A DNA stretch of 26,630 bases from a virus, in IMG/VR virus record IMGVR_UViG_3300008217_000067, positions 1-26,630 of that record; one strand, 5' to 3'. Of the stretch, positions 1 to 15,148 are shown one piece after another. Position 1 is the stretch's first letter. Every line of letters begins with the position of its first letter. Below the pieces are notes generated by a model that searched no databases, had not been told where the DNA came from, and saw only the letters and a program-made list of their open reading frames with translations. Made by a program: the position numbers and the translations under genes.

Positions 1-935
1 ACCGGAAGGCGATCGTTCAGGCTGCTGGGAAGATCCTCAAAGCCGCTGCGCCTGTCGACCTCACCCGAACCACCGCGGACCTGGCAGAGGTCCGGTTCTC
101 GGGCGTCGAGGTCGGGCCCTATCTGGGCCGCGGGATCATAGACAGGATAGACCTGTCTACCACGGCTGCTGGTGGGCAGCTGGTCCATGTCGTGGACTAC
201 AAGACCGGCCAGCCGCAGCAGCGCGAAGAACTGGCCCGCGCGCCGCAGACCCTGATTTACCTCGAACATGCGGTCAGCGAGTACTTCAACGGGTCCCCGC
301 CGCAGCCCTCAGACGACGTCGCCATGATCTACGACTACGTAGGCTCGGGCGTGCGGGTCAGGATCGACTACGACCCGTTCGTTGTCGAAGAAGGGCTAGC
401 CGCTGCAGGCCTGCTCTACGAAGAGTTCCAGGCCACGCCGACCGAAGAACTCGCAGAGACGCCGAATCCTTCGTGCTCCTGGTGCTCGTTCCGGTCGGAG
501 TGCTCTGAGTTCAAGCGGGTGGTAGAGAAGCCCGCCAGCCCGCCAGCGTGGGCCGCAGGCCTGCCCTTGGGTGACCTGGTGGCCAAGCGGTATCAGGTGA
601 GCCAGGATATACGCCTGCTCGAGCTCGCGCGCAAAGACCTGGACGTCGCAATTAAGGACCAGATCGAAGACGGTCGCTACGAAGACGCGGACCACACGGT
701 GCGCACGACCCGGCGGAAGACCACTACATACTCGCCGACGGTTCTGCCGCAGCTAAGCAGACATTTGGGCGTGCCGCTGCTCGATCTGGTGCGGAAGACC
801 TGCAAGGTAAGCAATACGAAGGTCAAGGCGCTGGCGAAAGGTGACGCAGCGAGCGCGGATATTCTGGCGCTCCACGCGTCGACCGAACCGGGCTCGGCGT
901 TTTTGACCGTCAAGGCTCGCGGAGGGCTGTTCTAG
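1..935 (+). CDS. Cas4/RecB-like PD-(D/E)XK nuclease, 5' end missing
   Basis: The frame is open from base 3 to the TAG at 933-935, so at least 310 residues are inside the window and the true start lies upstream; the GTG at 192 is internal. The visible part carries the hallmarks of the PD-(D/E)XK family: a GRGIIDRID segment (acidic motif II), then VVDYKTG (D and K of motif III), then QTLIY (the Q-x3-Y motif IV). Near base 460-510 is a CSWCSFRSEC cluster (C-x2-C-x5-C), as in Cas4/AddB-type nucleases that hold an Fe-S cluster; the expected fourth cysteine would be in the missing N-terminus. By family knowledge this would be a single-strand exonuclease used in phage DNA recombination or replication. 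It is first in a plus-strand chain and its stop overlaps the next start. The nuclease fold is well supported; the exact role is inference. Confidence 0.88.
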   Translation, partial: RKAIVQAAGKILKAAAPVDLTRTTADLAEVRFSGVEVGPYLGRGIIDRIDLSTTAAGGQLVHVVDYKTGQPQQREELARAPQTLIYLEHAVSEYFNGSPPQPSDDVAMIYDYVGSGVRVRIDYDPFVVEEGLAAAGLLYEEFQATPTEELAETPNPSCSWCSFRSECSEFKRVVEKPASPPAWAAGLPLGDLVAKRYQVSQDIRLLELARKDLDVAIKDQIEDGRYEDADHTVRTTRRKTTTYSPTVLPQLSRHLGVPLLDLVRKTCKVSNTKVKALAKGDAASADILALHASTEPGSAFLTVKARGGLF

Positions 936-1213
936 TGGGGCCGCTGTGCGGGCTGTGCCATACGGCTCATATCCTAATGACGCCCTGCTCTGCGATCCCG
1001 GGCGAACCGCCGCCACTGCTGGACAGAGAGCAGCGCAGGACAGTAAAGGCTGCGCTGGAGGTGGCGATAGAGCGCGGGAAGATCCGGCCATACCAGGCGC
1101 TTGAACTCGCTGAGATCCTGTCGGTCCAGCTCGAGCCCTGGGTAGATCGGCAGGCTGCCCACCTGGACAGGGCCATGGGGCCCGTAACTCCAACAGCCGA
1201 AAATCGAGAATAA
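935..1213 (+). CDS. Small cysteine-containing hypothetical protein (92 aa)
   Basis: The GTG start shares its G with the TAG of the nuclease gene (TAGTG), and a GGAGGG ribosome binding site lies about 8 bases upstream, which supports this start. The N-terminus has a C-x2-C-H pattern (C5, C8, H9) and another cysteine at 18, possibly a small metal site. Residues 30-75 look like two amphipathic helices. No family was recognised. The coupling suggests co-expression with the nuclease. The opposite strand also has an open frame here (753-1193), but it lacks a comparable ribosome binding site and runs through the nuclease gene. Confidence 0.6.
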   Translation: MGPLCGLCHTAHILMTPCSAIPGEPPPLLDREQRRTVKAALEVAIERGKIRPYQALELAEILSVQLEPWVDRQAAHLDRAMGPVTPTAENRE

Positions 1214-1227
1214 TCCCGGTATTACCT

Positions 1228-1255
1228 TGCGTCTTTGAAATTCTGCCGCTATTAT
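1228..1255 (+). promoter_or_regulatory. Candidate sigma70-type promoter
   Basis: In the 72-base gap between two plus-strand genes there is a TTGCGT (1228-1233), 16 bases, then TATTAT (1250-1255). The -10 box matches the consensus at 5 of 6 positions, the -35 box at only 3 of 6. It sits about 30 bases before the next ATG and lies in a locally AT-rich patch, unlike the rest of this GC-rich arm. It is the only larger gap in the early chain, so a promoter here makes sense, but the call rests on a weak match. Confidence 0.35.
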
Positions 1256-1285
1256 CTAGGCATAAGCAACAACGAAAGGCTTACC

Positions 1286-1456
1286 ATGAGCTACACCATG
1301 ACCGCGGACGAGACTGCAATCTGGGACGGGAACGACGACGCAGCCCGCGACGAACTGCGCCGCGAGGTCCGCATGCGGTTCCGCAGCGACTCACGAGGCG
1401 ACGTCCACGTTTACACCAACGACGGCGTTATGCTGTTCGTCGTCGAGAACGAGTAA
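1286..1456 (+). CDS. Small acidic hypothetical protein (56 aa)
   Basis: The ATG at 1286 is preceded by GAAAGG at a good distance; the in-frame TTG further upstream at 1235 has no such site. The product is rich in Asp, Glu and Arg, and its last 20 residues look like a beta hairpin (VHVYTNDGVMLFVVEN). No family was recognised. Its stop overlaps the next ATG (TAATG), starting a run of coupled micro-genes. Its own gap and candidate promoter suggest it may head a small transcription unit. Confidence 0.7.
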   Translation: MSYTMTADETAIWDGNDDAARDELRREVRMRFRSDSRGDVHVYTNDGVMLFVVENE

Positions 1457-1602
1457 TGACAGACCCAATCAAATCCGCCATAAACCAGGCCCTCAACGCT
1501 GCCATAGTCGGCAGCGGAACAGGCGAGAGCAACGAAGACGTTTTCTGGGCGCGGCTCGTCGCTGAGCTCCAGGCCGCGAAATCAAGGGAGCTGGAAGCAT
1601 GA
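1456..1602 (+). CDS. Micro-gene, 48-aa hypothetical protein
   Basis: The ATG at 1456 shares its A with the TAA of the preceding gene (TAATG), and the frame ends in a TGA that overlaps the next ATG (ATGA). The peptide begins MTDPIKSAINQALNAA and is predicted to be mostly helical. No family was recognised. The main support is the uninterrupted chain of start-stop overlaps on both sides, which is unlikely for random frames. Translation is probably by coupling, since no strong ribosome binding site precedes it. Confidence 0.6.
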   Translation: MTDPIKSAINQALNAAIVGSGTGESNEDVFWARLVAELQAAKSRELEA

Positions 1603-1700
1603 ACGAGAGCAACCTGCGTGCGGAGAAGAACGACTACGGGTGGTCTGTGATCGACCCAGACGGCGGCAGGTGGTGGCCAGGCCCCAGGGACTACGCATGA
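1599..1700 (+). CDS. Micro-gene, 33-aa hypothetical protein
   Basis: The ATG at 1599 overlaps the previous TGA (ATGA), and its own TGA at 1698-1700 overlaps the next ATG at 1697 in the same way. A GGGAG sequence precedes the start by about 9 bases. The peptide is 33 residues with a Trp-rich end (GGRWWPGPRDYA). No function can be assigned. It is reported because it fills the gap between two coupled genes exactly. Confidence 0.5.
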   Translation: MNESNLRAEKNDYGWSVIDPDGGRWWPGPRDYA

Positions 1701-1900
1701 GCCGCGGAGGCAAGCGGAAGGGCGCAGGCCGCCCCCCCATTGTCGGGCCTGATTCTGCAGAGGTCCGGGTCAAGCTCGGGCCGCGGGCGCTGGTGAAGTT
1801 AGACGAATACGCGGCGAAGCATTGCGCCCTACGTGCTGGCAGGCCTGATCGAGCGGCGGGGCTGCGGTCTATGGTCCTGCACCATGGAGCGACCCAATGA
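1697..1900 (+). CDS. Putative ribbon-helix-helix-like DNA-binding protein (67 aa)
   Basis: The start is the ATG at 1697, which overlaps the preceding TGA; the longer frame from 1640 runs through the previous micro-gene. The N-terminus is a basic GGKRKGAGRPP tail that resembles an AT-hook-like arm common in small phage proteins. It is followed by a short strand (EVRVKL), a helix (RALVKLDEYAAKH) and a second helix with a turn near RPDRAAGLRSM. This order is that of a ribbon-helix-helix fold, so DNA binding is a reasonable inference but not proven. The gene ends inside an 18-base repeat that carries the next ribosome binding site and start. Confidence 0.65.
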   Translation: MSRGGKRKGAGRPPIVGPDSAEVRVKLGPRALVKLDEYAAKHCALRAGRPDRAAGLRSMVLHHGATQ

Positions 1901-1901
1901 G
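1884..1901 (+). repeat. Start-site repeat A, copy 1
   Basis: The 18-base sequence ATGGAGCGACCCAATGAG occurs here and again, identically, at 2134-2151. In each copy the GGAG acts as the ribosome binding site and the second ATG is the start of a gene (1897 and 2147). The proteins that begin here are unrelated, so the identity is at the DNA level. Confidence 0.9.
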
Positions 1902-2130
1902 AGGCCTACCAGGACAGTGGATCATTTCGCCCAGCAAGCAGCGTCCCTGCCAACAATTGAGGGCCAAGTACCTCGAAAGAGACCTGTCCACGCTGCCGCC
2001 AGGCTGTGACCCCTGCTGCTCGAGAGCCGCTACGATCTTCGTCTATGATCCAAAGGCCAACCTCTGCACTCAACATTACCGCGCGCTGCGTAAGGCCAAG
2101 AGCGAGGCTTACCATGAGCCACCAGAATGA
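1897..2130 (+). CDS. Small cysteine-rich hypothetical protein (77 aa)
   Basis: The ATG at 1897 overlaps the preceding TGA and has GGAG about 7 bases upstream within repeat A. Cysteines at 18, 37, 40, 41 and 57 plus His60 (C-x2-C ... C-x2-H) suggest a treble-clef or zinc-ribbon-like metal site. The motif CTQHYRALRKAK near the end resembles the C-terminal half of a small zinc finger followed by a basic helix. No named family was recognised. The last codons lie in repeat B, which recurs at the start of a later gene in another frame. Confidence 0.7.
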   Translation: MRGLPGQWIISPSKQRPCQQLRAKYLERDLSTLPPGCDPCCSRAATIFVYDPKANLCTQHYRALRKAKSEAYHEPPE

Positions 2131-2133
2131 GTA
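2112..2133 (+). repeat. Junction repeat B, copy 1
   Basis: A 22-base block (CCATGAGCC, then A, then CCAGAATGAGTA) recurs at 2345-2366 with a single mismatch (T for A). Here it encodes the C-terminus HEPPE and stop of one gene; in the other copy it holds the start of another gene in a different frame. The sequence is thus conserved as DNA and not as protein. Confidence 0.85.
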
Positions 2134-2151
2134 ATGGAGCGACCCAATGAG
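2134..2151 (+). repeat. Start-site repeat A, copy 2
   Basis: This is identical to 1884-1901. Copy 2 abuts repeat B copy 1 directly and supplies the ribosome binding site and ATG of the gene at 2147. Confidence 0.9.
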
Positions 2152-2350
2152 CCTCCACGAGTATCAGCAGAGCCGCGCGGTCGAGCGCCACGGGTTCCCA
2201 TTCTACAGCCTGGTCATGGGCGCAATGCGCCAGGCCGACTCGGACAACGCGGAGAGGCTCAAGCGCGCGTTCCCAAAGGTATGGGAGGAGCTCCAGGCCC
2301 GGTACAGTGCGCCTGGAGGACTGCTCCCGAACGAGGCACATGCGCCATGA
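2147..2350 (+). CDS. Small helical hypothetical protein (67 aa)
   Basis: The ATG at 2147 lies in repeat A with GGAG 7 bases upstream. The overlapping frame from 2134 has no upstream ribosome binding site, and only its last 29 codons are used by the next gene. The product is mixed in charge and probably helical (residues 30-52). No family was recognised. Its TGA overlaps the next ATG. Confidence 0.65.
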   Translation: MSLHEYQQSRAVERHGFPFYSLVMGAMRQADSDNAERLKRAFPKVWEELQARYSAPGGLLPNEAHAP

Positions 2351-2366
2351 GCCTCCAGAATGAGTA
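2345..2366 (+). repeat. Junction repeat B, copy 2
   Basis: This is the second copy of the 22-base block at 2112-2133, with one mismatch. In this copy the first ATG is used as the start codon of the membrane peptide gene at 2347. Confidence 0.85.
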
Positions 2367-2436
2367 TCTGACCGCTATAGGCGGATTCTTAGCGCTCGTA
2401 ATGTCCGCGGCGCTGATCGCGTGGCTATGCTCGTAG
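2347..2436 (+). CDS. Small single-span membrane peptide (29 aa)
   Basis: The ATG overlaps the preceding TGA (ATGA). After a short polar start (MSLQNEY) there is one hydrophobic stretch of about 20 residues (TAIGGFLALVMSAALIAWL) ending in CS, enough for one membrane span. No function can be assigned. Small membrane peptides of this kind are common in phage early regions, where some act on host functions, but that is only an analogy. Its last codons overlap the start of the zinc-finger gene. Confidence 0.6.
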   Translation: MSLQNEYLTAIGGFLALVMSAALIAWLCS

Positions 2437-2918
2437 CGTGCGTCTCACAGGGCTGCGATCGCTCGTGGGACCCCGCCAAGCACAGGCCCTCTAAGCGATA
2501 CTGCTCCAAGCACTGCGGGAACCGTGACTACCACAGGCGCCCGCCAGCGAGCAGGACCTGCGCCTACCAGCCCTGCAGCGGGTCGTGGGTGATCGCTAGC
2601 CGCCACGCCACGGCGCGGCACTGCAACCGAGAGTGCGCTGCGCGGGCCTACCGGCAGAGACCTGGGCCTCGGGCCAGGCACGCCGCCCGGATCAGGCGCC
2701 GCCGCCGCGCGTCGATCGGCAGAACCTGCCGCTGGTGCCAGGTCCAAGACGGCGATCGGCAGTTTGCGACCATGACAGTGTGCACCCGCTGCGACCGGGC
2801 CCTCAGGCGTCAGGCCTGCGAGCGCTGCGGTGGCCCGTCATACCGGCGAGAGCCGGCCTGCCTGGTCCGGTGGCGCGCGCCCTATGGCACCGACTGCAGG
2901 CTCGAGAGCCTAGAATAG
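2427..2918 (+). CDS. Multi-zinc-finger protein with duplicated CGNR-like module
   Basis: The chosen start is the ATG at 2427, 10 bases inside the preceding gene; the GTG at 2421 is an alternative. The 163-residue protein contains two modules of identical geometry, C-x4-C-x15-C-x3-C, at C5/C10/C26/C30 and C45/C50/C66/C70, exactly 40 residues apart. The first contains YCSKHCGNRDY, close to the pattern of the CGNR zinc-finger family (PF11706); the second reads HCNRECAARAY. A C-x2-C-x14-C-x2-C finger follows (101-122), then C131/C134 with C145 and C157. An Arg-rich stretch (83-96) links the parts. Nucleic-acid binding is the likely role. The gene ends the plus-strand arm and overlaps the convergent resolvase gene by 9 bases. 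Confidence 0.75.
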   Translation: MLVACVSQGCDRSWDPAKHRPSKRYCSKHCGNRDYHRRPPASRTCAYQPCSGSWVIASRHATARHCNRECAARAYRQRPGPRARHAARIRRRRRASIGRTCRWCQVQDGDRQFATMTVCTRCDRALRRQACERCGGPSYRREPACLVRWRAPYGTDCRLESLE

Positions 2919-3344
2919 GTCCGTGGAGAGCTCGCGGGCCTCTGCTGCTGAGGTCGGGCCCGCTGGCAGCGCCTCGAGCCGGATCCGGAACCCAGGCAGG
3001 GGCCCGTAGGCTTTGCCGACCTCGCCAGCGCATATCTGACCGTCGTCAGCGAGAAAACCCGCGCCCTCCAGCCCGTCTTCAAACATTTTGAGATAGTTTC
3101 CGCGATCACCTCTGCCTGTCGCAGTGGGCCTAATGGATCCGTCCAGCGCCGCCTCTCGCTTCCAGCGCGGCCAGCTGGCAGGCACGCCCAAGACGAACAG
3201 CACGTCTAGTCGAATGTCCGCGGCCCAGGGCACCAGCGGCCTCTCGGGCACCTCCAGTAGGGCCTTAACGAGCGCGGCCTGAGCCGCGCGGGTGCGGCTC
3301 GAAGGGGATATCCTAGGCTGCCCCTTGACCCGGAACAGCGCCAT
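2910..3344 (-). CDS. rusA: RusA-like Holliday junction resolvase
   Basis: The ATG at 3344 is preceded by AAAGGGA at a good distance; the longer frame to 3473 has no such site. The 144-residue length is typical of RusA endonucleases, which cut four-way junctions during phage recombination and packaging. The key region is at residues 79-103: GDRGNYLKMFEDGLEG then LADDGQI, matching the family pattern D-x-D-N-x3-K ... D-x-L ... D-D-x-Q. Asp80, Lys86, Asp90, Asp100 and Asp101 are present, but the second Asp of the D-x-D-N motif is Gly82. The gene lies near a Cas4/RecB-like nuclease, fitting a recombination role. Family membership is fairly sure; whether the enzyme is active is open. Confidence 0.8.
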   Translation of the reverse strand: MALFRVKGQPRISPSSRTRAAQAALVKALLEVPERPLVPWAADIRLDVLFVLGVPASWPRWKREAALDGSIRPTATGRGDRGNYLKMFEDGLEGAGFLADDGQICAGEVGKAYGPLPGFRIRLEALPAGPTSAAEARELSTDLF

Positions 3345-3465
3345 GCTGTTCCCTTTAACCGCTGGGTGCTGGCCAGTCTTCTTCTTTTTCTTCTCCCGCC
3401 AGGAAAAGGTGGGCCCGGGTAAGAAGAACTCAACTGACGTCACAGGGTGGTTGTAGCCTGCATGT
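3345..3465. other. Divergent intergenic region with purine/pyrimidine tract
   Basis: These 121 bases separate the divergent starts of the resolvase gene (minus) and a 50-aa gene (plus). It holds a long pyrimidine-rich run on the plus strand (3378-3400, mostly CTT repeats) and the palindrome TGACGTCA at 3435-3442. No convincing sigma70 promoter pair was found for either gene. Confidence 0.5.
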
Positions 3466-3618
3466 ATGACCAAACTAGAAAGCCTGGCTCAGAAGGCGGC
3501 GACAGAGACCCTAAGCCCGGAGGAGTCAGAGGCTCTATCGCGCGCCCTGCTCGAGCTCGAGCTGCACCGGGCCAGGGAAGTGGCCCGGCGCATTCTCGCG
3601 GTCTGGTCTGAAGGCTAG
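3466..3618 (+). CDS. Small helical hypothetical protein (50 aa) on the minority strand
   Basis: The frame runs from the ATG at 3466 to the TAG at 3616-3618. The peptide (beginning MTKLESLAQKAATETLSPEE) has good helical composition, with a clean alternation of Leu and charged residues, and ends in RILAVWSEG. There is no strong ribosome binding site; an AGGGTGG lies about 20 bases upstream. Its stop shares the palindrome CTAG with the stop of the convergent minus-strand gene. No family was recognised. The coding call rests on composition and fit to the gap. Confidence 0.5.
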   Translation: MTKLESLAQKAATETLSPEESEALSRALLELELHRAREVARRILAVWSEG

Positions 3619-4100
3619 GCCTTCGCTGTCTTCTTCTTGCTCTTCTTCGCGGCCTTTGCCCTGGCCGCCGGGACTCTCTTCCCGTTGACGTCAACGGATC
3701 GGGTGGTCCCGTTGCGTGCTTTTCTCTTCTTGGCTCGCTGGAGTACCTTCCGCGCCGAAGACGGCGGCGGCGGCTGTCCCATGTCCTCACGCCACGAGAA
3801 CCGCGACACACCGTCAGTCACTGATAATTCTGCCTGCGCGGGGATCGACTCGCGCCCATGCTCGGTCGCAATCTGTCCCAGGGTCCCCGTGTAGGTCGTG
3901 TCCGCGTCCTGGGCAATCTTCTGTATCTGGCCTTGGATAGTCTTGATCTGGGACTGAAGGCGTGCAATTTCTGCCATGCGCTCTTCACTCCTGGCCCTGA
4001 CAAGCTCGAACGCGCGGGCCTGGAGCGGCGTCAGTTCGATTGAGATTGACTCCATGTGCGCGAAGGGATCAGACTCTGCCAGTATTTTAGATTGGGTCAT
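3615..4100 (-). CDS. Coiled-coil protein with Lys-rich tail (161 aa)
   Basis: The ATG at 4100 has AGGAG 6-7 bases upstream. Residues about 20-66 form a clear coiled coil (ERMAEIARLQSQIKTIQGQ and on). A Ser/Pro-rich linker follows, and the last 45 residues are very basic, ending AAKKSKKKTAKA. A basic tail of this type suggests contact with DNA or a polyanion, but no family was recognised. It is the last gene of the late minus-strand block, 40 bases after the fibre gene, so it could be a minor virion or fibre-assembly protein, or a separately controlled regulator. The ribosome binding site may be hidden in a hairpin. Confidence 0.75.
   Translation of the reverse strand: MTQSKILAESDPFAHMESISIELTPLQARAFELVRARSEERMAEIARLQSQIKTIQGQIQKIAQDADTTYTGTLGQIATEHGRESIPAQAELSVTDGVSRFSWREDMGQPPPPSSARKVLQRAKKRKARNGTTRSVDVNGKRVPAARAKAAKKSKKKTAKA
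3682..3697. repeat. Perfect 16-bp palindrome inside a gene
   Basis: CCGTTGACGTCAACGG is its own reverse complement. It lies in the coding part of the coiled-coil gene (codons for VDVNGKR). Its core TGACGTCA occurs once more at 3435-3442 in the divergent gap. A single such palindrome is expected by chance in a window this size, so no function is claimed. Confidence 0.6.
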
Positions 4101-4103
4101 GCG

Positions 4104-4124
4104 TGCTCCTTGGGTTCGGGAGCA
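4104..4124 (-). promoter_or_regulatory. Hairpin covering a ribosome binding site
   Basis: In the minus-strand RNA, TGCTCC (4124-4119) pairs perfectly with GGAGCA (4109-4104) across a 9-base loop. The second arm contains the GGAG ribosome binding site of the gene starting at 4100. Pairing would reduce initiation unless translation or a factor opens it. The stem is only 6 bp, so the effect is inferred. Confidence 0.4.
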
Positions 4125-4140
4125 GAGTGTAACAAAGCCA

Positions 4141-7100
4141 CTAGGGCACAGCCTGGATAAGCTCGACCTTCCAGCCGCGGACGCTTGTCGCGTCGTTGTT
4201 CGATCCTACCGTGTTGTCTCCGCGCAGCAGTAGGTCGATCGTGCCTGAGATCGCCTCCGTGTGCGAAGTGTGGTCGACAAACGTCGTCCCTGTGCTCGTG
4301 TAGACCGTGACCCCGTTTGCCTCCTGCCCAGCCGCAGCGGTTATAGAGACTATTGCGTCGATCCTCCACGGGTCGCCGCCGTCACCCTGCCCTGTTCCGA
4401 TCTTTAATCCGCCGGTCCCGCCCCAGCGCAGGAACGCCGAACCTGTCTGCACTCCGTCGTCGAAGGTACCCCACGCCGTAATCTTGACTTGGTCCCCGAC
4501 AGACAGCTGGGCAGCGCTGAACTGGTAGCTCTTTAACGTCTGCTCTGCAGCGCCTACCGTGGACACGAGCGTAGCGTCGGCAGCGAGCACCGACGTCCCG
4601 CTAATAAGCGAAAGGTCTACTTCTGTCCCGTCGTCACGGACCCACCAGGCCTCGTTGGACCCTGCCGTGTCTCCTGCATAGAGTCCGGGGAGGAATACGC
4701 CAGCGCCAGGGCTCGGCCAGTTCGCAGGTCGCACGGCCTGCTCAGCGAATGCGATCCCTGTAGGGTCTATTATGTCGTCGAAAGTAGCCTTTCCTGTCGC
4801 ATGGACCGGGCCCGTGATAAGCACGCCGCCCTCACCGACTAGCAGACTGGTGCCCGACGAGACTCCAGCCGAAGTGAGGACGTCGAATTCTAGGCCTACC
4901 TGGGTATGAGTAAGGCGTACGCCGCCGCCGCCCTGCACGCCGGAGAACCCAGGCGTCCCGAAGACCATGCTAGCGCCGCCGCCTGGCAGGAAGAGGTCGA
5001 CCGGCCCCGCGCCGACCGATCCAGAGGCTGTCTCTCCTGGGTTATAGTCCCCGCTTTGGAGCGCGTAGAGCACGCTAGGCTCTACGAACTCTGGCGGCCC
5101 GAACACGATACCGCCAGCGGTCGCCTGGCCTCCTCCTCCAGCTGCGGTAAATGACTCCCAGGTCCCGTCTCCTTGAGCGACGACGGTAATAGCTGCGACA
5201 TTCCCAGCATTGGCAGGCACGCTCACCAGGTCTTGTATCCAGCCTCCGTTAGTGAAGTCTGTCTGCCCCTGGGCTGTCGCATATCCGCCTAGGATAATCC
5301 CGCCATTGAACCCCATGCTCTGTAGCGCTGTCGGCGTGCGGCTCGACTCGCCTCCTCCTCGTGCTTTGCGCACGGCGTCTGAGTCGCCCACTCGGGGGGG
5401 TGGCGTCTGTGCTGGGCGCCCGTATTCGTCAATAACGCCAGCGCCGTTTAGAGCCCAATAGGTGCTTGGCGTCATTGTGCCGCCGCCAAACACAGACAGG
5501 CCGCCAATTGGCAAACCTCCCCCCGAGATTGAGCCGTCGCCACGGCTTGGAGGCGGGTATCCAGTCCCTGAAGTCCCGCCGGGGCCGACTCCTGTTAGAC
5601 CATTGCCGCCGCCGCCGCCTGCTTTCTGATCGGGCCGCGTAGGCTCTAGTCCCCCCGGGTCTAGCGGGAGCTGCCCGCCTGGATAGCCGGGCCCCGTGTC
5701 CCAGCCGTCAACCTTGTCCCAGGCGCCCCAGCCCGCCGGAGGGTCCACCCATTCTTCGGGCGGATCCCAGTTCTCAAGCTGGCCGCCAACAGTCGTCTGA
5801 CCGGCCCCAGAGTTTGAATTTGGGCCACCGTCTGTGCCCAGATCCGTCGGCTCAGATCCACTGGGTGCATACTGCCCAGTGCCGCCTGGGTAGGTCTGCG
5901 GAACCCAGTTCCCTCCCATGTCTGAGAAAGGGCCTATATCGCCAGTCGTCCCGCCTGACGTCGGTAAGCCCGTGCCTGAGATCGAGCCGTCTCCGCGGGT
6001 GACTGGGCCTGGGTCATATGTCGTCCCCGCTCCAGTCCCGCCACCTCCCGGGGTAGTCTGGCATTCCTTTGGTGGGCCAGTATCGGTCTTCTCCGGCTTC
6101 TTAGGTCCTTTTTTGGTGACCTTCTTCTTTTTCGGGTCTCGCCTGCGACCTGTGACTGTCTTGGTCTCGTCCTGTGGAATAAAGAAGAAAGTCTCAGCAG
6201 CCCACCGCCACTTGCCTGGCGCGGTTCCGCCGCACCAGCCGTGGGCTACGCCACCGTCCCAGCGAAGGTGGACTGGGCTCAGGAAGGGGCCACCAAGAGT
6301 TGGGTCCTCCCATGGTTGAGTCTCAAAGTCCAGCGGCCCGTCGCCCATGGAGTTCTTGTAGAGCGCGTCGCAGGAGATATGCGCCGCGTTAACGGGCTCG
6401 CCGTCAACGGTGGTCCCGATCCTGTGGACGTCGCCCTGATCGCCAACCTCGAGGAACCCGCCCGAGCGCGCGGTGATCGACGCGAGGACGAAGCCAGCGG
6501 CCAATGGTTCCGGCGGTTTGTCTTTGGGCGGCTCTTCTTTCTCTTTTGGCGGATCCTCCTTGGGCCGCGTTTCGGTCTTCTCGGGCGGCGGTCGAGTCTG
6601 CGTCTCGTCGCCTGGCCTCCGCTCTGGGACCTCTGGCTGGTTCGGCGTCTTTCCCTGGGTCCGCTCCTGGTAGTTCTCGAGGAGCTTCTTCATGTACTCC
6701 TGGGTGTTAGTGATCCTCCCATGGGAGGTCTTCATGCCCTCCTCGCCCTGCTTAGGGACCCCCTCCTCTTCTCTGGCTTCGCCGCTGGCGCCACTGGAAG
6801 CGCCAGGCGTGTCGTAGACGAGGCCTCGCCCGTCCAGCCCGTCTTTGCCAGACAGGGTCAGCTGCCAAGCAAGCGTGTCATTTCCGCCTAGACACTTGCC
6901 TCCCGCCAGCTTTGCCACCCGCCAGAATGTGTGCAGTCGGGCTGCTCGGTCCTTATCGGGCTTGTCGTCTTTGTCGAGGTCGTAGACCAGGGTTCCCAGC
7001 TTGGGGTCTCCTGCCTTGTTGACCGCCACCAACGGCGCGCCGCCGGTCGCGAATGCCAGCAGCTCTTGGCTGTTCTCGTTGGTCGAGGCCAGGACAATCA

Positions 7101-7566
7101 GCGGCTGACCTACAGAGACGTCTGCCGCGTCTGGGTGAAGGCCTGCGACCTGCGCGCGATATCTCGGGTCCGCGGCCCAGCGTGAGTTTCCAGCCAGGCC
7201 CACGCTGACGGTGCGGCTATCGCTCTTCTTCTTCTTGTCCTGAGCGCGGGTGCGAGTGACCGAATTATCAGACTTGGTCGTAGTCTCCTTCTTGGAGTTC
7301 GACAGCGCGACGCCTGGAGCCGCGAACAGCCAAGACCCGTGCTGACGTAGCGCGGTGCTGGCGGTCGGAAAGTGCATTCCGCCGATAAGGTCACCGGAGG
7401 TCATTACTGCCGACTGAGATCCTTCGTGGCCCTCAATGACCCACTGGCCAAGGTCCCGCCGACCCTCGACCCGGCCACACATGACCTTCTCTCGGTTCTG
7501 CGGAAGGATCCCGCGGTGGTCCTGAAGCGGGAGCATGCCCAGGACTCTGAAGTCGGCAAGTTTCAT
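4141..7566 (-). CDS. Large tail fibre / receptor-binding protein (1141 aa)
   Basis: The ATG at 7566 overlaps the TGA of the upstream gene (ATGA); the frame's earlier ATG at 7704 lies deep in that gene. The N-terminal 300 residues form a compact non-repetitive part that may attach to the virion. Then comes a Pro/Lys/Glu-rich spacer (about 320-357), a further folded segment with Trp-rich motifs (WRWAAETFFFIPQ), a Lys cluster (about 475-495) and a long Gly/Pro-rich stretch (500-760) with two copies of RGDGSISG-x-GLP (near 523 and 673). The C-terminal 380 residues look like beta-rich fibre domains, ending in a jelly-roll-like part. Order and size fit a fibre or tip protein that contacts the host. 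Homology to a named fibre was not recognised. Confidence 0.75.
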   Translation of the reverse strand: MKLADFRVLGMLPLQDHRGILPQNREKVMCGRVEGRRDLGQWVIEGHEGSQSAVMTSGDLIGGMHFPTASTALRQHGSWLFAAPGVALSNSKKETTTKSDNSVTRTRAQDKKKKSDSRTVSVGLAGNSRWAADPRYRAQVAGLHPDAADVSVGQPLIVLASTNENSQELLAFATGGAPLVAVNKAGDPKLGTLVYDLDKDDKPDKDRAARLHTFWRVAKLAGGKCLGGNDTLAWQLTLSGKDGLDGRGLVYDTPGASSGASGEAREEEGVPKQGEEGMKTSHGRITNTQEYMKKLLENYQERTQGKTPNQPEVPERRPGDETQTRPPPEKTETRPKEDPPKEKEEPPKDKPPEPLAAGFVLASITARSGGFLEVGDQGDVHRIGTTVDGEPVNAAHISCDALYKNSMGDGPLDFETQPWEDPTLGGPFLSPVHLRWDGGVAHGWCGGTAPGKWRWAAETFFFIPQDETKTVTGRRRDPKKKKVTKKGPKKPEKTDTGPPKECQTTPGGGGTGAGTTYDPGPVTRGDGSISGTGLPTSGGTTGDIGPFSDMGGNWVPQTYPGGTGQYAPSGSEPTDLGTDGGPNSNSGAGQTTVGGQLENWDPPEEWVDPPAGWGAWDKVDGWDTGPGYPGGQLPLDPGGLEPTRPDQKAGGGGGNGLTGVGPGGTSGTGYPPPSRGDGSISGGGLPIGGLSVFGGGTMTPSTYWALNGAGVIDEYGRPAQTPPPRVGDSDAVRKARGGGESSRTPTALQSMGFNGGIILGGYATAQGQTDFTNGGWIQDLVSVPANAGNVAAITVVAQGDGTWESFTAAGGGGQATAGGIVFGPPEFVEPSVLYALQSGDYNPGETASGSVGAGPVDLFLPGGGASMVFGTPGFSGVQGGGGVRLTHTQVGLEFDVLTSAGVSSGTSLLVGEGGVLITGPVHATGKATFDDIIDPTGIAFAEQAVRPANWPSPGAGVFLPGLYAGDTAGSNEAWWVRDDGTEVDLSLISGTSVLAADATLVSTVGAAEQTLKSYQFSAAQLSVGDQVKITAWGTFDDGVQTGSAFLRWGGTGGLKIGTGQGDGGDPWRIDAIVSITAAAGQEANGVTVYTSTGTTFVDHTSHTEAISGTIDLLLRGDNTVGSNNDATSVRGWKVELIQAVP

Positions 7567-8420
7567 GCGGCCGCGACCTTCTCTAATGCGGTAAAAAACG
7601 CGTGGGCACACACGATCTCTCTGTGTATCCAGCCTTGTACATAGCTCGGTGGGATCCTGGCGGGGTTCCAGAGCACAGAAGCGTCTGCTGGATCTGTGAA
7701 CCACTTTTTGTACCAGGTGCGGTATTCGTAGGCATAGTGGATCAGGGGGGCCTCGACTGGTGCCTCGTATTCCCAGTTCGTCTGCGTCAGCTTCAGCCGC
7801 TGCGGCTTCTTGCCCACGACAGCGAGCGCCAGCGCGAAGGCCCGCATTTGGTCAGACCACTCCCAGCCCGGGAGATCGCAGAACAGGTCCATGATCTGCC
7901 ACCAGACCTCACCGAGATCCTTCGCGATCTCTATTGGGATCACATAGGGAACCCTGGCGCCCCATGTGTGGTTCGGGTCGTCGCCCAGGTCCAAGCCGAG
8001 ATCGTCAGCAATCCTCGCCGCGAGCCCTCCCCGGAGGTCGTTCGGGCACCTGTCGACAGCCAGTGTGGTGGGCCACGATACCTTGCGAGTCCAGACCATA
8101 TCAGGGTCCATGAGTACTATATGAGTAGCGCCCAGCTGCTTGCCTTTGTGGTATCCGTCGAGCAAAGACGCTGCAGTATTCCGCGCGGCCCATTCTCTGC
8201 TGCCCTCGCCCCGGTAGTTCTTGCTGGGAACGACAAGCGCGCCAGCCTCGCGACAGGCAAGGAACTCGCCTGTCAGGCCTTCTTCGTAGCCGCCATGAAC
8301 AACGATCATAGGTGCTACCCTCTGCCGCTTCAGACAGGAATAGGTCGCGACCTGAGCCTGCCAGCCGTGGTAGTACCAATTCTCACAAGAGATCACCACG
8401 AGGTGCTTACTCTCTGTCAA
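7563..8420 (-). CDS. Glycosyltransferase-like protein (GT-A type, 285 aa)
   Basis: The start is a TTG at 8420, chosen because GAGGG lies 6 bases upstream and no ATG is near; it overlaps the TAA of the upstream gene. The N-terminus (KHLVVISCENW) begins like a Rossmann-type strand. Residues 98-110 read ATHIVLMDPDMVW, a hydrophobic strand ending in a DPD, which fits the DXD metal/nucleotide-sugar motif of GT-A glycosyltransferases. Several Trp and Tyr residues in the last 80 (QTNWEYEAP, HYAYEYRTWYKKWF) could line a sugar site. Family assignment is by motif and layout, not by search. It lies between a large tail-tip protein and the fibre with coupled overlaps, so a virion or fibre substrate is possible; host surface sugars are the alternative. 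Confidence 0.65.
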   Translation of the reverse strand: MTESKHLVVISCENWYYHGWQAQVATYSCLKRQRVAPMIVVHGGYEEGLTGEFLACREAGALVVPSKNYRGEGSREWAARNTAASLLDGYHKGKQLGATHIVLMDPDMVWTRKVSWPTTLAVDRCPNDLRGGLAARIADDLGLDLGDDPNHTWGARVPYVIPIEIAKDLGEVWWQIMDLFCDLPGWEWSDQMRAFALALAVVGKKPQRLKLTQTNWEYEAPVEAPLIHYAYEYRTWYKKWFTDPADASVLWNPARIPPSYVQGWIHREIVCAHAFFTALEKVAAA

Positions 8421-10587
8421 CGAAGCCCTCTACGATCCTGCGCACGTCTGGTGGCAGCAGCGCCTGAGCGTCTACGGCAGGAGGCGAGGGCGCAAGCTCC
8501 ACGGTGGTAAGCGCGCCGCCCTCTTCGCCGCTCGCGAAATTATGCACGACCCGTGTCACTGTCCCGCCAATGGTGGCGTCCGGGCGGAACGTCGTCGTCA
8601 GCTGGCCTTCTGGGTGGTCCCTGTAGCGCATGAACTCACGGAGCGCGAAGGCCTTGGCAATGTCCTCTAACTGTCCCAGATTTACGGGGTCCCCTAGGTC
8701 TGGAAATTCAAAGTCCGATCCGCCCTCAGTAAACGCTGCGAAGAACTGCGGGGCCAGGTCGTCATTCCAAGCGAATCGTGCTACAGCGCGCGGGAGCCCG
8801 ACCCGGAGCTCGAGCACGGGACCCTCGCCCTGCTGCGAGCGGGGCGTAGCGCCCGGCAGGAGGCTTTCAGCCTCGCTTAATGTGACCTCCACAGGATAGA
8901 ACCGGCGGCGGTTATTGGGCGCGCCCAGGCTCAAGGTCACCAGGAACGAGAGTTCCATGTCCGGTGTCAAGAACGTGTCCTCAATGAATATCTTCCGCTG
9001 ATCGAACCGAGCGAGCCCGCCAGACCTCGCGACCGCTGCTGATCGCTCGTAGGTGTCTACCAGCCCTTTGAAATCCTCCTGCAAGACGACCTGCAGGATC
9101 CCTAGGTCCTGGTCAAGGACACGGACGATAGCAGGCGCTGGCTCGAGCTTGTCTAGGCGGGTCCCAATGATCTGATTCCCTACGTCCTCCTTGGCCAGCG
9201 TGTTTGAGAAGCGGTTCTGCGTCAGCTGGAACAGGGCCTGCTCCACCGAATCAGACTGGTTTAACGGCGTCCAGGCATGGACTACGCAATAGTCCTGGTA
9301 GGCCAGCGCTGGCGCGCGGGAGCCTGTCTCTGGGTCTTCGATTCCCACTCGGTAGGGATAGATCCGCTTTACCCGGTCTCGCCATATCTTGCCGATTAGA
9401 AAGGTTCGCCGGTAGTGTTCGCGGAGGAGCGCGATACGCTTACGCCAGACGCCGCCGCGGTCAACTTCCGGCGCGCCGTAGGAGTTCAGCGCGTTACCGA
9501 ACCAGTTCTCTCTGATTCTGGTCCGCGACAGCTCAAACGCTTTTGCCAGTGGGTTGGGCCCTTTGTTCTGGTTGCAGAACTCTATGTAATCGTCCAGCGT
9601 GAGCCATGTCCCGCGGACTACCCTCCTGGTAGCGTCGCCCACGGTAAACGTCCCGTCTTCAGGGACAGGGATCACGTTAGAGCAGCGCAGGAGCTCGCCA
9701 GCGTCTCTAGGCCTCGTCTCCTTGCCTCCGAGCGGATCAGACTCCTTGGTGTCTATCCTCGCCTCCACCTGTCGCTCATATAGAACCCTGATCTTGGCGG
9801 GTCGCTCCTTCCGCCTGTCTTGGCGCTCGAACAACGGGAACCCGACGATAGGTCGCAGCTCCACGAGCCCTTGGCGTGTCGTAGTCTCGCGCAGATTCGG
9901 GAGGCCTAGGGCCTGCGCCTCACCGTCTCCTTGGGTGTCGTAGAGAATGACCTGCCCGGTCCCGTCTACATAGACGTTTGCGCCGCCGCCTAGATAAGCC
10001 AGGAGCTTCGCCACCGCGGCGTCCCCTTGCATATTGAATTCCCAGTTTTCTACCGGAACTGTTGACGCGACCAAGACGTGGTCACGGTCGGTCCAATTGC
10101 CAGCCCCGGCCACGGTGTCCAGAATATCCCTCGCCACCTCTTCGCCGCTCCAGGCCACTCCGTTGTTGATAGACCAGGGAGCATAGGATACGTCGTCGCT
10201 GACGACGGTCTGCTGCGTCCGCGCGTCAGGGGGCAGGTTCCCGGATCCCGGGGACCGCTTGACGTTAGGCGTCTTCCTGCGGACATTGTAGTAGCGTGGG
10301 ACGAACACATACGCCCATTGGAATCGGCGGTCTACCAAGGTCAGAATGGTTGTGCTGGGGTTGCTGCTGGGTGCTAGGCCTAAGATCGTGAGTTGGGCAA
10401 TCTCCTTTGAGTCCCCCTCGTTCTCCAATTCCAAGACGGAGCCTAGGGCTGTGCCTACAGCGAACAAACCCTGCGCTGTCTCGCGGTCTACCTCGAGTTG
10501 GACGATTGACGGAGCAACGCCGGGGACCTCGATCCACCGGGAGCCAGACTGGACCTCGAGCGGGACACCGTCTAGCCGGGCGATCAC
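8407..10587 (-). CDS. Tail tip / baseplate-hub-like protein (726 aa)
   Basis: The GTG at 10587 overlaps the upstream TGA (GTGA) and has AGAGG about 10 bases before it. The protein is beta-rich and without low-complexity parts. Residues around 185-220 contain a GDAAVAKLLAYLGGGANVY segment followed by VDGTGQVILYD, a pattern often seen in hub proteins of tailed phages, where a small alpha/beta domain precedes a beta barrel. It stands after the tape-measure candidate and another large tail protein and before the fibre, the usual place of tip proteins. Hub identity is inference from position and composition. Confidence 0.6.
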   Translation of the reverse strand: MIARLDGVPLEVQSGSRWIEVPGVAPSIVQLEVDRETAQGLFAVGTALGSVLELENEGDSKEIAQLTILGLAPSSNPSTTILTLVDRRFQWAYVFVPRYYNVRRKTPNVKRSPGSGNLPPDARTQQTVVSDDVSYAPWSINNGVAWSGEEVARDILDTVAGAGNWTDRDHVLVASTVPVENWEFNMQGDAAVAKLLAYLGGGANVYVDGTGQVILYDTQGDGEAQALGLPNLRETTTRQGLVELRPIVGFPLFERQDRRKERPAKIRVLYERQVEARIDTKESDPLGGKETRPRDAGELLRCSNVIPVPEDGTFTVGDATRRVVRGTWLTLDDYIEFCNQNKGPNPLAKAFELSRTRIRENWFGNALNSYGAPEVDRGGVWRKRIALLREHYRRTFLIGKIWRDRVKRIYPYRVGIEDPETGSRAPALAYQDYCVVHAWTPLNQSDSVEQALFQLTQNRFSNTLAKEDVGNQIIGTRLDKLEPAPAIVRVLDQDLGILQVVLQEDFKGLVDTYERSAAVARSGGLARFDQRKIFIEDTFLTPDMELSFLVTLSLGAPNNRRRFYPVEVTLSEAESLLPGATPRSQQGEGPVLELRVGLPRAVARFAWNDDLAPQFFAAFTEGGSDFEFPDLGDPVNLGQLEDIAKAFALREFMRYRDHPEGQLTTTFRPDATIGGTVTRVVHNFASGEEGGALTTVELAPSPPAVDAQALLPPDVRRIVEGFVDRE

Positions 10588-12056
10588 CTGCTTTGACCTC
10601 TGGTCCTGGTCTTGGGCTGGTTTGTGCTCCCGCCTGATCCTTGCGCGCTCGCTGCTATGATCTCGAACTCCTCTGTGACGGTCTTTATCGTTACGAGCTG
10701 CTGGGTGCCCTGGATCCCGCGGAACCCTGGCTGGTTGCGGCTCCTGCGCGACAGCCGCACGGCCTCAGTCCCTGCCTCTGTCGTTGGAGTCGCGAGCTCG
10801 CCCAGCACGGTCGCGCCCTGACCTTCTCGGAGCACAATGCGTGGCGAGCCTCGGACCCCACCCGCGCCACCCAGCGCAGGCGAGGCTATGTCGCCCAGCG
10901 TGGTCGTGGTCGTGATCACCTGGCGGTTTAGCTTGCGGTTGGCCTGGTACTTGAATGCCTCGGTAGGGTTCGGCTCGTCGTCTGTCTCGTCGTCTGGGAC
11001 GACTTCGGGCCATGTGTAACGAATGATCTTCCCGAAGTCGATTGAGTCCGTGAACTCTATCTTTCGCTCCAGGAGCGAGCCGCCAGCCGTTCCAAGCCCG
11101 GTCAGCGTCGCTTGAATCGTGTGCTCGTCGAAGTTGTAGCCTGGCTCTACCGTCTCAAGAATCACAGACCCGCCCGCTACGGTCTCCATGTTCTGGGTGA
11201 TCCACGGCAGAATGGTCGTATCAAACAGGCTGACCATGTCTTCCTCTATCGTCTGGTCTACGGCAGCGGTGTACTCGGCGACGATCCGCTTTAGCGGTCG
11301 CGCGGAAGGGTCGCCGTCGGTGCCCTCGTCTACCACCTTGACGATCAGCGAAGGGTCAACAATCCCTGGGTTATCTAGCTGGCCTGAGTCCTGGTTAAAG
11401 AAGACCTGCCTATAGGATCGCTCGAACTCAACGGTGGTGTCTGTGACGTTCGGCGTATATCGCTCGGTCACGAGCTCTGCTGACCAGCCCAGAGCCGCAA
11501 TGATCGTGGCTACGCGCGCGGTGATCTCCGACAGGTAGACAGCGCTGGCCTTGACCACCGGCAGCCCTGGGTCTGCGGTGTATGCGCCACGCACCGTCAG
11601 GCCGCCACGCCTAGACGGGGTGTAGACCACGTCATACTCAAAGTCCTGCAGGAAGTCGTCGTCAACGGTTCGGGCTGGAATGCCAGCCTGAATCGTTACC
11701 TCGTAGAGCCTCGAGGTGTTCGTGTCAAAGCGCGGATCAGACTCGCCCACCTTGACGATCTCGGGCGTGACGTCGAAGCCTGTAGCGTCCGCGTCGCTGA
11801 GCTCGAGGGACTCAGAAGACAACAGGTTGACCCTCAGCGCCTCTCTTCGGCGGGTAAACAGTTCCTCCAGGGATACGCAGGCTGCAGCCAGAATGGACTC
11901 GGACGAAGCCTGCACGACGAACCGAAAGACCACGGTAGCGTCTACGGGCCCTTTTCTGATCCTGTGTATCCCTGTCAGGTGGAGATCAGCACCCGCGCGG
12001 GATCCCGGGATAGCCTGGCCCGCGTAGACAACCGACATTTCGCGAACGACTGCCAC
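10584..12056 (-). CDS. Tail protein, possible distal tail/tip component (490 aa)
   Basis: The start is the GTG at 12056, which shares its G with the TAG of the upstream gene and has GGAGG 6 bases upstream; the ATG seven codons later lacks such a site. The product is beta-rich and acidic, with many Thr/Val strands, and ends in a disordered polar tail (QGSGGSTNQPKTRTRGQSR). No named domain was recognised. It follows the short tape-measure candidate and couples to the 726-aa hub-like protein, so a role in the tail tip is likely. Its start site shares a 12-base DNA sequence with the nested scaffold start at 19354. Confidence 0.6.
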   Translation of the reverse strand: MAVVREMSVVYAGQAIPGSRAGADLHLTGIHRIRKGPVDATVVFRFVVQASSESILAAACVSLEELFTRRREALRVNLLSSESLELSDADATGFDVTPEIVKVGESDPRFDTNTSRLYEVTIQAGIPARTVDDDFLQDFEYDVVYTPSRRGGLTVRGAYTADPGLPVVKASAVYLSEITARVATIIAALGWSAELVTERYTPNVTDTTVEFERSYRQVFFNQDSGQLDNPGIVDPSLIVKVVDEGTDGDPSARPLKRIVAEYTAAVDQTIEEDMVSLFDTTILPWITQNMETVAGGSVILETVEPGYNFDEHTIQATLTGLGTAGGSLLERKIEFTDSIDFGKIIRYTWPEVVPDDETDDEPNPTEAFKYQANRKLNRQVITTTTTLGDIASPALGGAGGVRGSPRIVLREGQGATVLGELATPTTEAGTEAVRLSRRSRNQPGFRGIQGTQQLVTIKTVTEEFEIIAASAQGSGGSTNQPKTRTRGQSR

Positions 12057-12805
12057 TAGGGGCCTCCGATACCTTTGGCCAGGATCTCAAGGACGTTGAC
12101 GGCTCCTCGCTTCGCCAGGCCCAGCCGGTTACGACCAGCGATCAGCCGCCGCTCCTCGCGGCTCTGGAGGATCTCGTCACGCACCCGAGCGGCTTCGAAT
12201 GCCTCGCCGACAGGTGTAAAGATCAGACCACCCGCGCCCGTGTCTCCACCAGCCGCGAAGGCGTCCTCGATCCCTCGGGCCCGCAGGCGGCCCACGCCAA
12301 ACGAAGCCCGAAGAACTCGCATTGGGTCTGACATGAACGCGATCTGGTCAGTCTGCGCACGGATTTCGCCCTCTAGCTTGGCGAACTCCTCTCGAGTGAC
12401 GTTCCTGGGGATTGAGTCGATCCTGGGCTGCTCGAAATTCTCCGCGACGAAGCTGCTAACTGCTCCAACGACCTTGACGGCTGCGAAGCCTGCCGCGGCA
12501 GCTGTCAGGCCTGCGCGCCCGCCCTTCGCGATCCCACGCATGCGCTCCTTGATCGTCTCTTTTTTGAGCGCGCCAGCTATCAGGCCGCCGCCGAACCCAG
12601 GGCCCTTCTTCCCGGCAGGCGCTCGCTTGCCCGTCGGCCTCGTGGGCGCGCCCGGTGGCTGCCCGCGGGCCTGGTTGCCGCCGCCGCCAGCCTGCGATTC
12701 CCTTACGCGTTGCTCAGACCGCTCAGACTTAGACCGGAGTTCGCGGGCCTTTTTCTCGGCCTCCTTGGTGTTTAAGACAACCTTGATTTCAGCGCGTTCT
12801 GCCAT
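12056..12805 (-). CDS. Short tape-measure-like tail protein (249 aa)
   Basis: The ATG at 12805 opens with AEIKVVLNTKEAEKKARELRSKSERSE in spirit: a short strand followed by a charged helix, as at the N-terminus of many tape-measure proteins. A Gly/Pro-rich basic linker (about 38-80) follows, then a hydrophobic helix region (residues 95-120, rich in Ala/Gly/Val) that could be a membrane-active segment, then charged helices to the end. It lies just before the large tail-tip genes, where the tape measure is expected, and no longer candidate exists in the block. At 249 residues it is very short for this family. The ribosome binding site is weak. The identity is inferred from position and composition. 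Confidence 0.5.
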   Translation of the reverse strand: MAERAEIKVVLNTKEAEKKARELRSKSERSEQRVRESQAGGGGNQARGQPPGAPTRPTGKRAPAGKKGPGFGGGLIAGALKKETIKERMRGIAKGGRAGLTAAAAGFAAVKVVGAVSSFVAENFEQPRIDSIPRNVTREEFAKLEGEIRAQTDQIAFMSDPMRVLRASFGVGRLRARGIEDAFAAGGDTGAGGLIFTPVGEAFEAARVRDEILQSREERRLIAGRNRLGLAKRGAVNVLEILAKGIGGP

Positions 12806-12825
12806 GATCTGAGTGTAGCAGTCGC

Positions 12826-13332
12826 CTATGGCGAGCTCCCAGCCCCTGTCCAGGCAGACCAGGTGTATTGGCGCTGGGCTACATAGCCAACCTCGGCGTC
12901 TAGTTCAGCCGCGACCGCTGAAGCTGAGATCAGTTGGATTCGGACACCGTCCTGCTCTGAGAGTAGCGCTATGGCGTCAAACAGGACCTGCTCAAGCTCG
13001 AGCAAACCGCGCCCCTTGGAAGTCAGGCCAGTCCCTGGTCCTGCGCCCCCCATGATCACAGTCTCGCCCCATGTGTCGCCTGCTACAGCATGAGCGATCA
13101 GGATCGTAAACTTTTGGGTGACCAGGTCCGGCTCCTCGTCGTCTACCTCCATTTCAGCTGGCAGGATCAGGCAATAGGGCCACCGCACCTGGGATCGGTA
13201 GCGCTCACCGTCGATCCCGGCGGATACGATCACCTTCCCGAAGACCCGCTCACCGCCAAGACCTGGCCAAACAGCCGTAGCCAGCGCGGTCTTGATCAGC
13301 CCAGCTATGGCAAAGGTACTAGCCACGGGCAC
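12826..13332 (-). CDS. Tail terminator/completion-like protein (about 168 aa)
   Basis: The frame is open back to an ATG at 13377, but that start would overlap the upstream gene by 59 bases; the GTG at 13332 overlaps it by 14 and gives a typical beginning (PVASTFAIAGLIKTALAT). The ribosome binding site is poor for all candidates, so the start is uncertain. The protein is alpha/beta with a long middle strand pair, 'YCLILPAEMEVDDEEPD' before 'QKFTILIAHAVAG', and a central helix (LLELEQVLFDAIALLSEQ), the layout of tail terminator proteins such as lambda gpU types. Position between tube-like and tape-measure-like genes fits. Function is inference. Confidence 0.55.
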   Translation of the reverse strand: MPVASTFAIAGLIKTALATAVWPGLGGERVFGKVIVSAGIDGERYRSQVRWPYCLILPAEMEVDDEEPDLVTQKFTILIAHAVAGDTWGETVIMGGAGPGTGLTSKGRGLLELEQVLFDAIALLSEQDGVRIQLISASAVAAELDAEVGYVAQRQYTWSAWTGAGSSP

Positions 13333-13657
13333 GATCCATGAACGCCGCCAATGTCCTTGATACCAGCGAGTCTCCACCGTCTAGGACCGCAAGCACGGCA
13401 GCCTCGCCCAGCTCCGTCCGCGCGGCATGCGCGAAGCGCACGGCCTGGCGGGTAGCTACACGGTCTCCGGCCACAGCCAGCGACGAGCGCTCGATCTCTG
13501 AGAGGCCCGCGAATTCTTGAATGGAGACCGAGCCTCCCCCGCGCAGGAACTGCTCGCAGCCCTGCGTTAGCCGGTTCAGCCGGTCCTCTGCCTCCTGGCC
13601 TTCTGTGGCGGCCTCTACGTCCCCATAGACGCCCAGGGCTTCTGCTAGAGCCCCCAT
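13319..13657 (-). CDS. Small helical tail-region protein (112 aa)
   Basis: The ATG at 13657 has AGGGAG about 7 bases upstream and overlaps the preceding gene by 13 bases. The product is almost wholly helical, acidic at the N-terminus and Ala-rich in the second half (AVRFAHAARTELGEAAVLAVL). No family was recognised. Lying between tube-like and tape-measure-like genes it could be a tail assembly chaperone, but no slippery heptamer was seen that would give the usual frameshift product, so this is only a possibility. Confidence 0.65.
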   Translation of the reverse strand: MGALAEALGVYGDVEAATEGQEAEDRLNRLTQGCEQFLRGGGSVSIQEFAGLSEIERSSLAVAGDRVATRQAVRFAHAARTELGEAAVLAVLDGGDSLVSRTLAAFMDRARG

Positions 13658-14124
13658 GAGACACTCCCTGTGGGCGCAGCGCCCTCTCGGATAGCTAGGA
13701 ACTCGCAGAGGATCAGGTGCTCGGTGCGTGCCGCCATACTTACCTCGATCTCCTCAGCCGCGCGCGGTATCGCCTTTGCAAACGTGAAGCCTGGATAGTT
13801 GGAATCCTTGGGCGTAAAGACCAGCGCCGCGGCGTCTTGGGATCGGAACCAGCCGGCCTTCTTGGCTCCTGGGAACTGGACAAAGCCCGCCGATACATTC
13901 GGGAAGACCGCGGCGATAGAGGTTGACAGGAACCCACGCAGCGCGAGACCGACCCGATAGACCGCGCCTACAAATAGCTCGTCAACGATCTCAACGCCGA
14001 ACTCCTCGGCCTCTATTGGCGTCTGAGACGCTGTGCGGAGGAGCTGGACGTCACGAATGAGCCCTAGGTCAGTTCCACCGAACGACACAGAGCCGGGGAC
14101 CCTGAGCGCGTCCAGGGCGCTCAT
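13645..14124 (-). CDS. Tail tube-like protein (159 aa)
   Basis: The ATG at 14124 overlaps the upstream TGA (ATGA). The protein begins with a short strand pair (GSVSFGGTDLGLIRDVQLL), has a loop (ASQTPIEAEEFGVEIVDEL), then alternating strands with a helix, and ends in a hydrophobic helix (RTEHLILCEFLAIREG) and tail. This is the general layout of siphovirus tail tube proteins, which start with a statement-like GTDLG turn and remodel a loop upon assembly. The place directly after the gpG-like gene fits. No exact family was recognised, so the tube call is moderate. Confidence 0.55.
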   Translation of the reverse strand: MSALDALRVPGSVSFGGTDLGLIRDVQLLRTASQTPIEAEEFGVEIVDELFVGAVYRVGLALRGFLSTSIAAVFPNVSAGFVQFPGAKKAGWFRSQDAAALVFTPKDSNYPGFTFAKAIPRAAEEIEVSMAARTEHLILCEFLAIREGAAPTGSVSWGL

Positions 14125-15145: not shown

Positions 15146-15148
15146 GCT

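Follow-up and report, generated by a model that had tools for sequence, protein, structure and literature searches.

Duplicated start-region repeats at the edges of an extra small-gene unit in an uncultured tailed phage

A 250-base unit in the small-gene stack of an uncultured tailed phage begins with one short repeat and ends with another, and the whole unit is missing from a sister phage. The unit is probably an extra small-gene cassette at positions 1884-2133 of the window (the entire virus record analyzed, a 26.6-kb genome fragment of 26,630 nucleotides), in which case the two repeats, A and B, represent the shared edges of alternative cassettes that were joined head to tail by illegitimate recombination. 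Read in this way, the locus provides a base-resolved view of a compact phage gene stack gaining a gene with its neighbors unbroken.

Repeats and genes of the small-gene stack

Among the products of the window are a Mu-type portal (Pfam Portal_Mu, E 5e-40) and, from 2910-3473 (-), a RusA-like resolvase, and its left edge codes for a PD-(D/E)XK nuclease. The small-gene stack lies on the + strand between the nuclease and the resolvase, with genes starting at 935, 1286, 1456, 1599, 1697, 1897, 2147, 2347 and 2427, by which they are referred to here, and with overlapping stop and start codons at most of its junctions. A promoter-like TTGCGT-17-TATTAT is present at about 1228-1256, directly upstream of gene 1286, and by eye is mostly kept in the sister phage, G004. 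The features of the stack are as follows.

1277..1294 (+): repeat C copy 1 (AGGCTTACCATGAGCTAC), with the Shine-Dalgarno (SD)-like AGG and ATG of gene 1286; site of an extra gene in G004
1696..1702 (+): CATGAGC, containing the start of gene 1697; a breakpoint at which G004 carries an additional gene between two copies of this sequence
1697..1900 (+): upstream neighbor of the unit, a 67-aa gene whose G004 protein is 96% identical
1884..2133 (+): unit of 250 bases that G004 lacks, made up of A copy 1, gene 1897 and B copy 1
1884..1901 (+): repeat A copy 1, covering the end of gene 1697-1900 (its last codons and stop), an SD-like GGAG and the ATG (1897) of gene 1897
1897..2130 (+): gene of the cassette (77 aa), for which viral contigs and phage records yielded no relatives
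2105..2122 (+): repeat C copy 2 (AGGCTTACCATGAGCCAC), fused to B copy 1 and providing the SD and start for a six-codon stub
2112..2133 (+): repeat B copy 1, overlapping the 3' end of gene 1897; a membrane-gene-like open reading frame (ORF) starts here and is cut short
2114..2134 (+): six-codon ORF MSHQNE-stop, by its sequence a stub of the membrane-gene start
2134..2151 (+): repeat A copy 2, immediately after B copy 1, with the GGAG and the ATG (2147) that belong to gene 2147
2147..2350 (+): downstream neighbor of the unit, a 67-aa gene with 99% identity to its G004 counterpart
2345..2366 (+): repeat B copy 2, where the intact 29-aa membrane gene starts; same in G004
2347..2436 (+): membrane-protein-like gene of 29 aa (MSLQNEYLTAIGGFLALVMSAALIAWLCS) that looks hydrophobic by eye and is the intact version of what B copy 1 begins

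Repeat A, ATGGAGCGACCCAATGAG, occurs twice without mismatch, and repeat B, CCATGAGCC[A/T]CCAGAATGAGTA, occurs twice with one mismatch; these copies, and the contact between the end of B copy 1 (2133) and the start of A copy 2 (2134), agree with a preliminary description of this DNA. A third repeat, C, which was absent from that description, reads AGGCTTACCATGAGC[T/C]AC (also written AGGCTTACCATGAGCYAC) and overlaps B copy 1. Every copy of the three repeats contains an ATG start, and the SD-like GGAG of A and AGG of C are found at ordinary spacing to it. Each A copy had been described as the ribosome binding site and start of a gene, which is correct but incomplete, as A copy 1 also encodes, in frame, the last residues (HGATQ-stop) of gene 1697-1900. 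Repeat B had been read as coding C-terminus in one place and as a start region in another frame in the other, with the conclusion that selection acts on DNA and not on protein. The C-terminal overlap is real (gene 1897), but both B copies are start regions in one and the same frame, and the conclusion therefore does not follow.

In B copy 1, the first six membrane-gene codons are retained, preceded by an SD-like AGG. The stub reads ATG AGC CAC CAG AAT GAG TAA versus ATG AGC CTC CAG AAT GAG TAT... in gene 2347, which begins ATGAGCCACCAGAATGAGTATCTG..., and its TAA stop is formed at the join, while its ribosome binding site comes from C copy 2. The six-codon ORF with its own SD-like AGG (2105-2134) sits between genes 1897 and 2147, ends one base into A copy 2 and may help ribosomes to pass over the join.

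A search of the whole window for 18-base direct repeats with up to one mismatch and copies within 900 bases returned three, namely A, B and C and nothing else, all on start regions within one 1.2-kb small-gene stack. Sixty dinucleotide shuffles of the whole window, analyzed with the same distance limit, gave a mean of 0.03 such pairs and contained neither an exact 18-mer pair nor a 22-mer pair with one mismatch. With up to 3 mismatches allowed, each repeat had two copies in the window, a partial genome, and no further occurrence of A was present there. On a smaller scale, all five ATGAGC hexamers in 1213-2440 are starts when the six-codon stub is counted (0.56 expected; 0 of 2000 shuffles reached five), because the genes overlap their neighbors' stops and favor serine as the second codon. 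Most gene boundaries consequently share a short sequence, and boundaries inherited from one locus share more. MSLHEYQ (gene 2147) and MSLQNEY (gene 2347) look alike but were not taken as another repeat, as MSLHxY is conserved in a relative of gene 2147 in the distantly related contig G009.

Sister phage and distant relatives

A search with the major capsid protein identified 19 related contigs, of which G004 (IMGVR_UViG_3300024520_003924) covers the gene-stack region. The same protein gave no match to this phage in bacterial genomes, and no phage records with DNA similarity to window 1-4000 were found. G004 is 89-96% identical to the window over shared DNA, with 94% identity over window 1696-1901 and 95% over 2136-15163, and shows three gene-scale differences within the stack (J1, J2 and J3). 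At J3, window 1884-2133 is missing in G004, which is exactly one A-to-A period. G004 reads ...CACCACGGAGCGACCCAATGAGCCTCCACGAG... at this position, a single A flanked on its left as A copy 1 is and on its right as A copy 2 is, and the alignment blocks 1696-1901 and 2136 onward both include it. G004 carries one A (1 mismatch) and one B, the latter at the intact membrane gene.

The other two differences add genes to G004. At J2 (1697), the window reads GGACTACGCATGAGCCGCGGAGG and G004 reads GGACTACGCATGAGCACATACG...GGCTTCATGAGCCGCGGAGG, with its extra gene between two CATGAGC copies. At J1 (1286, repeat C copy 1), the extra gene separates the leader AAAGGCTTACC from the gene 1286 start, which is ATGAGCTACACC in the window versus ATGGCCAGCTACACC in G004. 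The J1 and J2 breakpoints, like J3, fall at start codons, that of J2 inside the 7-base CATGAGC repeat. Such positions are also expected from selection for intact genes, whatever the mechanism. The check proposed in the preliminary description, whether gene content differs exactly at the motifs, had a positive outcome at A, with one unit present or absent, and at C copy 1, with a gene added in G004. Two further differences were discounted as support. The only other large difference in the aligned 17 kb outside the stack, at 15162 (15149-16432 (-); L031 about 4075-4350), is an in-frame insertion of ~80 codons in G004 near the C-terminus of a structural protein and does not involve a start codon. 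The second, of 81 bases at 1686, alters the interior of gene 1599 in frame.

More distant relatives were reached through the nuclease, which matched no relatives as a single-sequence query and, as an alignment query, only G007, G009 and one weak match. The nucleases of G007 and G009 are 42-43% identical to that of the window. Collection queries with gene 2427 (zinc-finger-like) and gene 2147 returned only G004, G007 and G009. In G009, a 49% identical relative of gene 2147 directly follows the nuclease, with the nuclease stop CTGTGAGC before it and the next start GGCATGAGC after it. G007 reads CTTTGAGC here; the gene is present or absent at a common TGAGC stop/start overlap. Slightly further along, the two contigs share an ATGACC start followed by different genes. 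A relative of gene 2147 was also found in Mycobacterium phage JustASigh (gene 38, 49% identical), likewise in a small-gene stack with 4-base stop/start overlaps. The position of the RusA-like resolvase is held in G007 and G009 by a different small protein on the opposite strand (L032 about 4235-4618; L033 about 15130-15547), which by eye looks nuclease-like (...PDFLV...IHEVKGT...) and is possibly a functional replacement.

None of the three repeats was found in the stretches of G007 and G009 that were read, at up to 3 mismatches, and G009 carries its gene 2147 relative without repeat A. A start-associated motif recurring in relatives, as the preliminary description envisaged, is not what these genomes display, given only one A and one B in G004. 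Four other IMG/VR contigs match the 16-base core of A, none encoding relatives of this region's genes; collection matches to the A core or to B outside G004 were rejected as chance, being in contigs of this kind.

Origin of the tandem unit

We favor as probable a head-to-tail joining of two cassettes of one locus, in which A (the end of gene 1697, the SD and the start) would be the left edge and B (the membrane gene start) the right edge. One ancestor would have had the order A-gene1897-B-membrane gene, and the other the order A-gene2147-B-membrane gene, as in G004. A single illegitimate end-to-start join, with the donor cut at codon 7 of the membrane gene (2133/2134) and placed just before A of the recipient, would yield A-1897-B'-A-2147-B. 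Such a join accounts for A and B each occurring twice, for B copy 1 being truncated and touching A copy 2, and for the intact neighboring frames; the one-base difference between the B copies would reflect different parents. That viral contigs and phage records yielded no relatives of gene 1897 is as expected for an import. The reading also agrees with the J1 and J2 breakpoints at start codons, with the gene differences in the independent, more distant pair G007/G009, and with the short homology carried by gene boundaries as ATGAGC. The donor order was present in no contig searched, and the boundary is held by G004 and the window only, the gene 2147 cassette being seen alone and the gene 1897 cassette only in tandem. 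Unlike the other breakpoints, the 2133/2134 join has no evident microhomology. From parsimony and one close relative, we infer that the window gained the unit rather than that G004 lost it.

The unlikely but strongest alternative is a simple loss, in which the window shows the ancestral arrangement and gene 1897 was deleted from G004 when the two 18-base A copies recombined. The single A of G004, joining the left flank of A copy 1 to the right flank of A copy 2, is the exact product expected. However, the truncated start of B copy 1 is joined to A copy 2, so a tandem join is needed anyway, and loss requires two events where G004 as the unjoined state requires one. Under the head-to-tail reading, too, the cassette could later be lost, as the A copies provide homology for A x A recombination.

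A mis-joining of strain variants (cassette 1897 and cassette 2147) during metagenome assembly has a small chance of being the explanation. The window is a contig of metagenome origin and the sole sequence in which the B1/A2 join was seen. Assembly k-mers are usually longer than 18 bases, and the longest exact repeat at the join, at 18 bases, falls below them; moreover, the sequence has no N run, and A copy 2 and the downstream frame run on intact. It is improbable as well that the repeats are dedicated boundary sequences selected as recombination ports for small-gene swapping. Gene content does change between the sister phages at A, C copy 1 and ATGAGC starts, but A and B are not common to the wider family, and the short ATGAGC is explained by stop/start overlap and a serine second codon, with no need for selection on recombination.

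A start-associated regulatory or translation element of the cluster K mycobacteriophage type, kept for a factor or the ribosome, is very improbable. Every copy does lie on a start, and A and C have SD-like GGAG and AGG at ordinary spacing, yet two copies of each do not constitute a family, none occurs elsewhere in the window, all three motifs are missing in G007 and G009, and the gene 2147 relative of G009 does without A. Chance similarity of start regions, which do look alike in SD and ATGAGC, can be dismissed in view of repeats of a length essentially absent from shuffles and a unit exactly present or absent in G004. Of the roles initially proposed, a recombination joint fits in the form of duplicated cassette edges, whereas a regulatory site is not supported.

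We regard A, B and C as edges rather than signals, with no role demonstrated beyond ordinary ribosome binding, start and stop. A cassette edge of this type brings an upstream stop, a ribosome binding site and a start, which leaves old and new genes both translatable, and the truncated start at the join tells which ends were joined. With every ATGAGC of 1213-2440 at a start, gene boundaries carry the same short homology, and it is conceivable, though rather doubtful, that overlapping stop/start codons with a serine second codon ((A)TGAGC) form a general homology port in this phage family. If so, cassettes would enter and leave at starts without damage to reading frames or ribosome binding sites, and start-codon context would steer gene turnover.

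Comparison with known systems

The start-associated sequences (SAS) of cluster K mycobacteriophages consist of one 13-bp consensus with 11-19 copies per genome, conserved across subclusters (PMC3203893). The present repeats share with them the position of SD-containing sequences just before the starts of unrelated genes. They differ in being three different repeats with two copies each, unconserved in G004 (one A and one B) and in G007 and G009 (none). The match is a poor one, agreeing in location near starts and failing in copy number and conservation.

Boundary sequences of lambdoid phages are found at one and the same boundary in many phages, whereas A and B are known only from the window and G004. 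The likeness lies in short homology at gene edges with differing gene content, and short conserved boundary sequences have been proposed for phage mosaicism (cited in PMC3029335).

The closest parallel is gene 68 of mycobacteriophage Island3 compared with Brujita, an orphan gene whose presence or absence goes with that of one copy of a 50-60-bp repeat (PMC3029335, Fig. 5C). That repeat lies at gene 3' ends, whereas the repeat here is 18 bp over a stop, SD and start, and a second repeat (B) with a truncated start marks the other edge. In both cases, an orphan small gene is present in one of two sisters with a direct repeat shared with the upstream neighbor gene, the other sister (here G004) has a single recombinant repeat copy and misses exactly one repeat unit, and the flanks are syntenic and of high identity on both sides (94% and 95% here). 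The unit thus adds a clear and seemingly recent example of small-gene gain and loss in phages, a process already known, and does not represent a new system.
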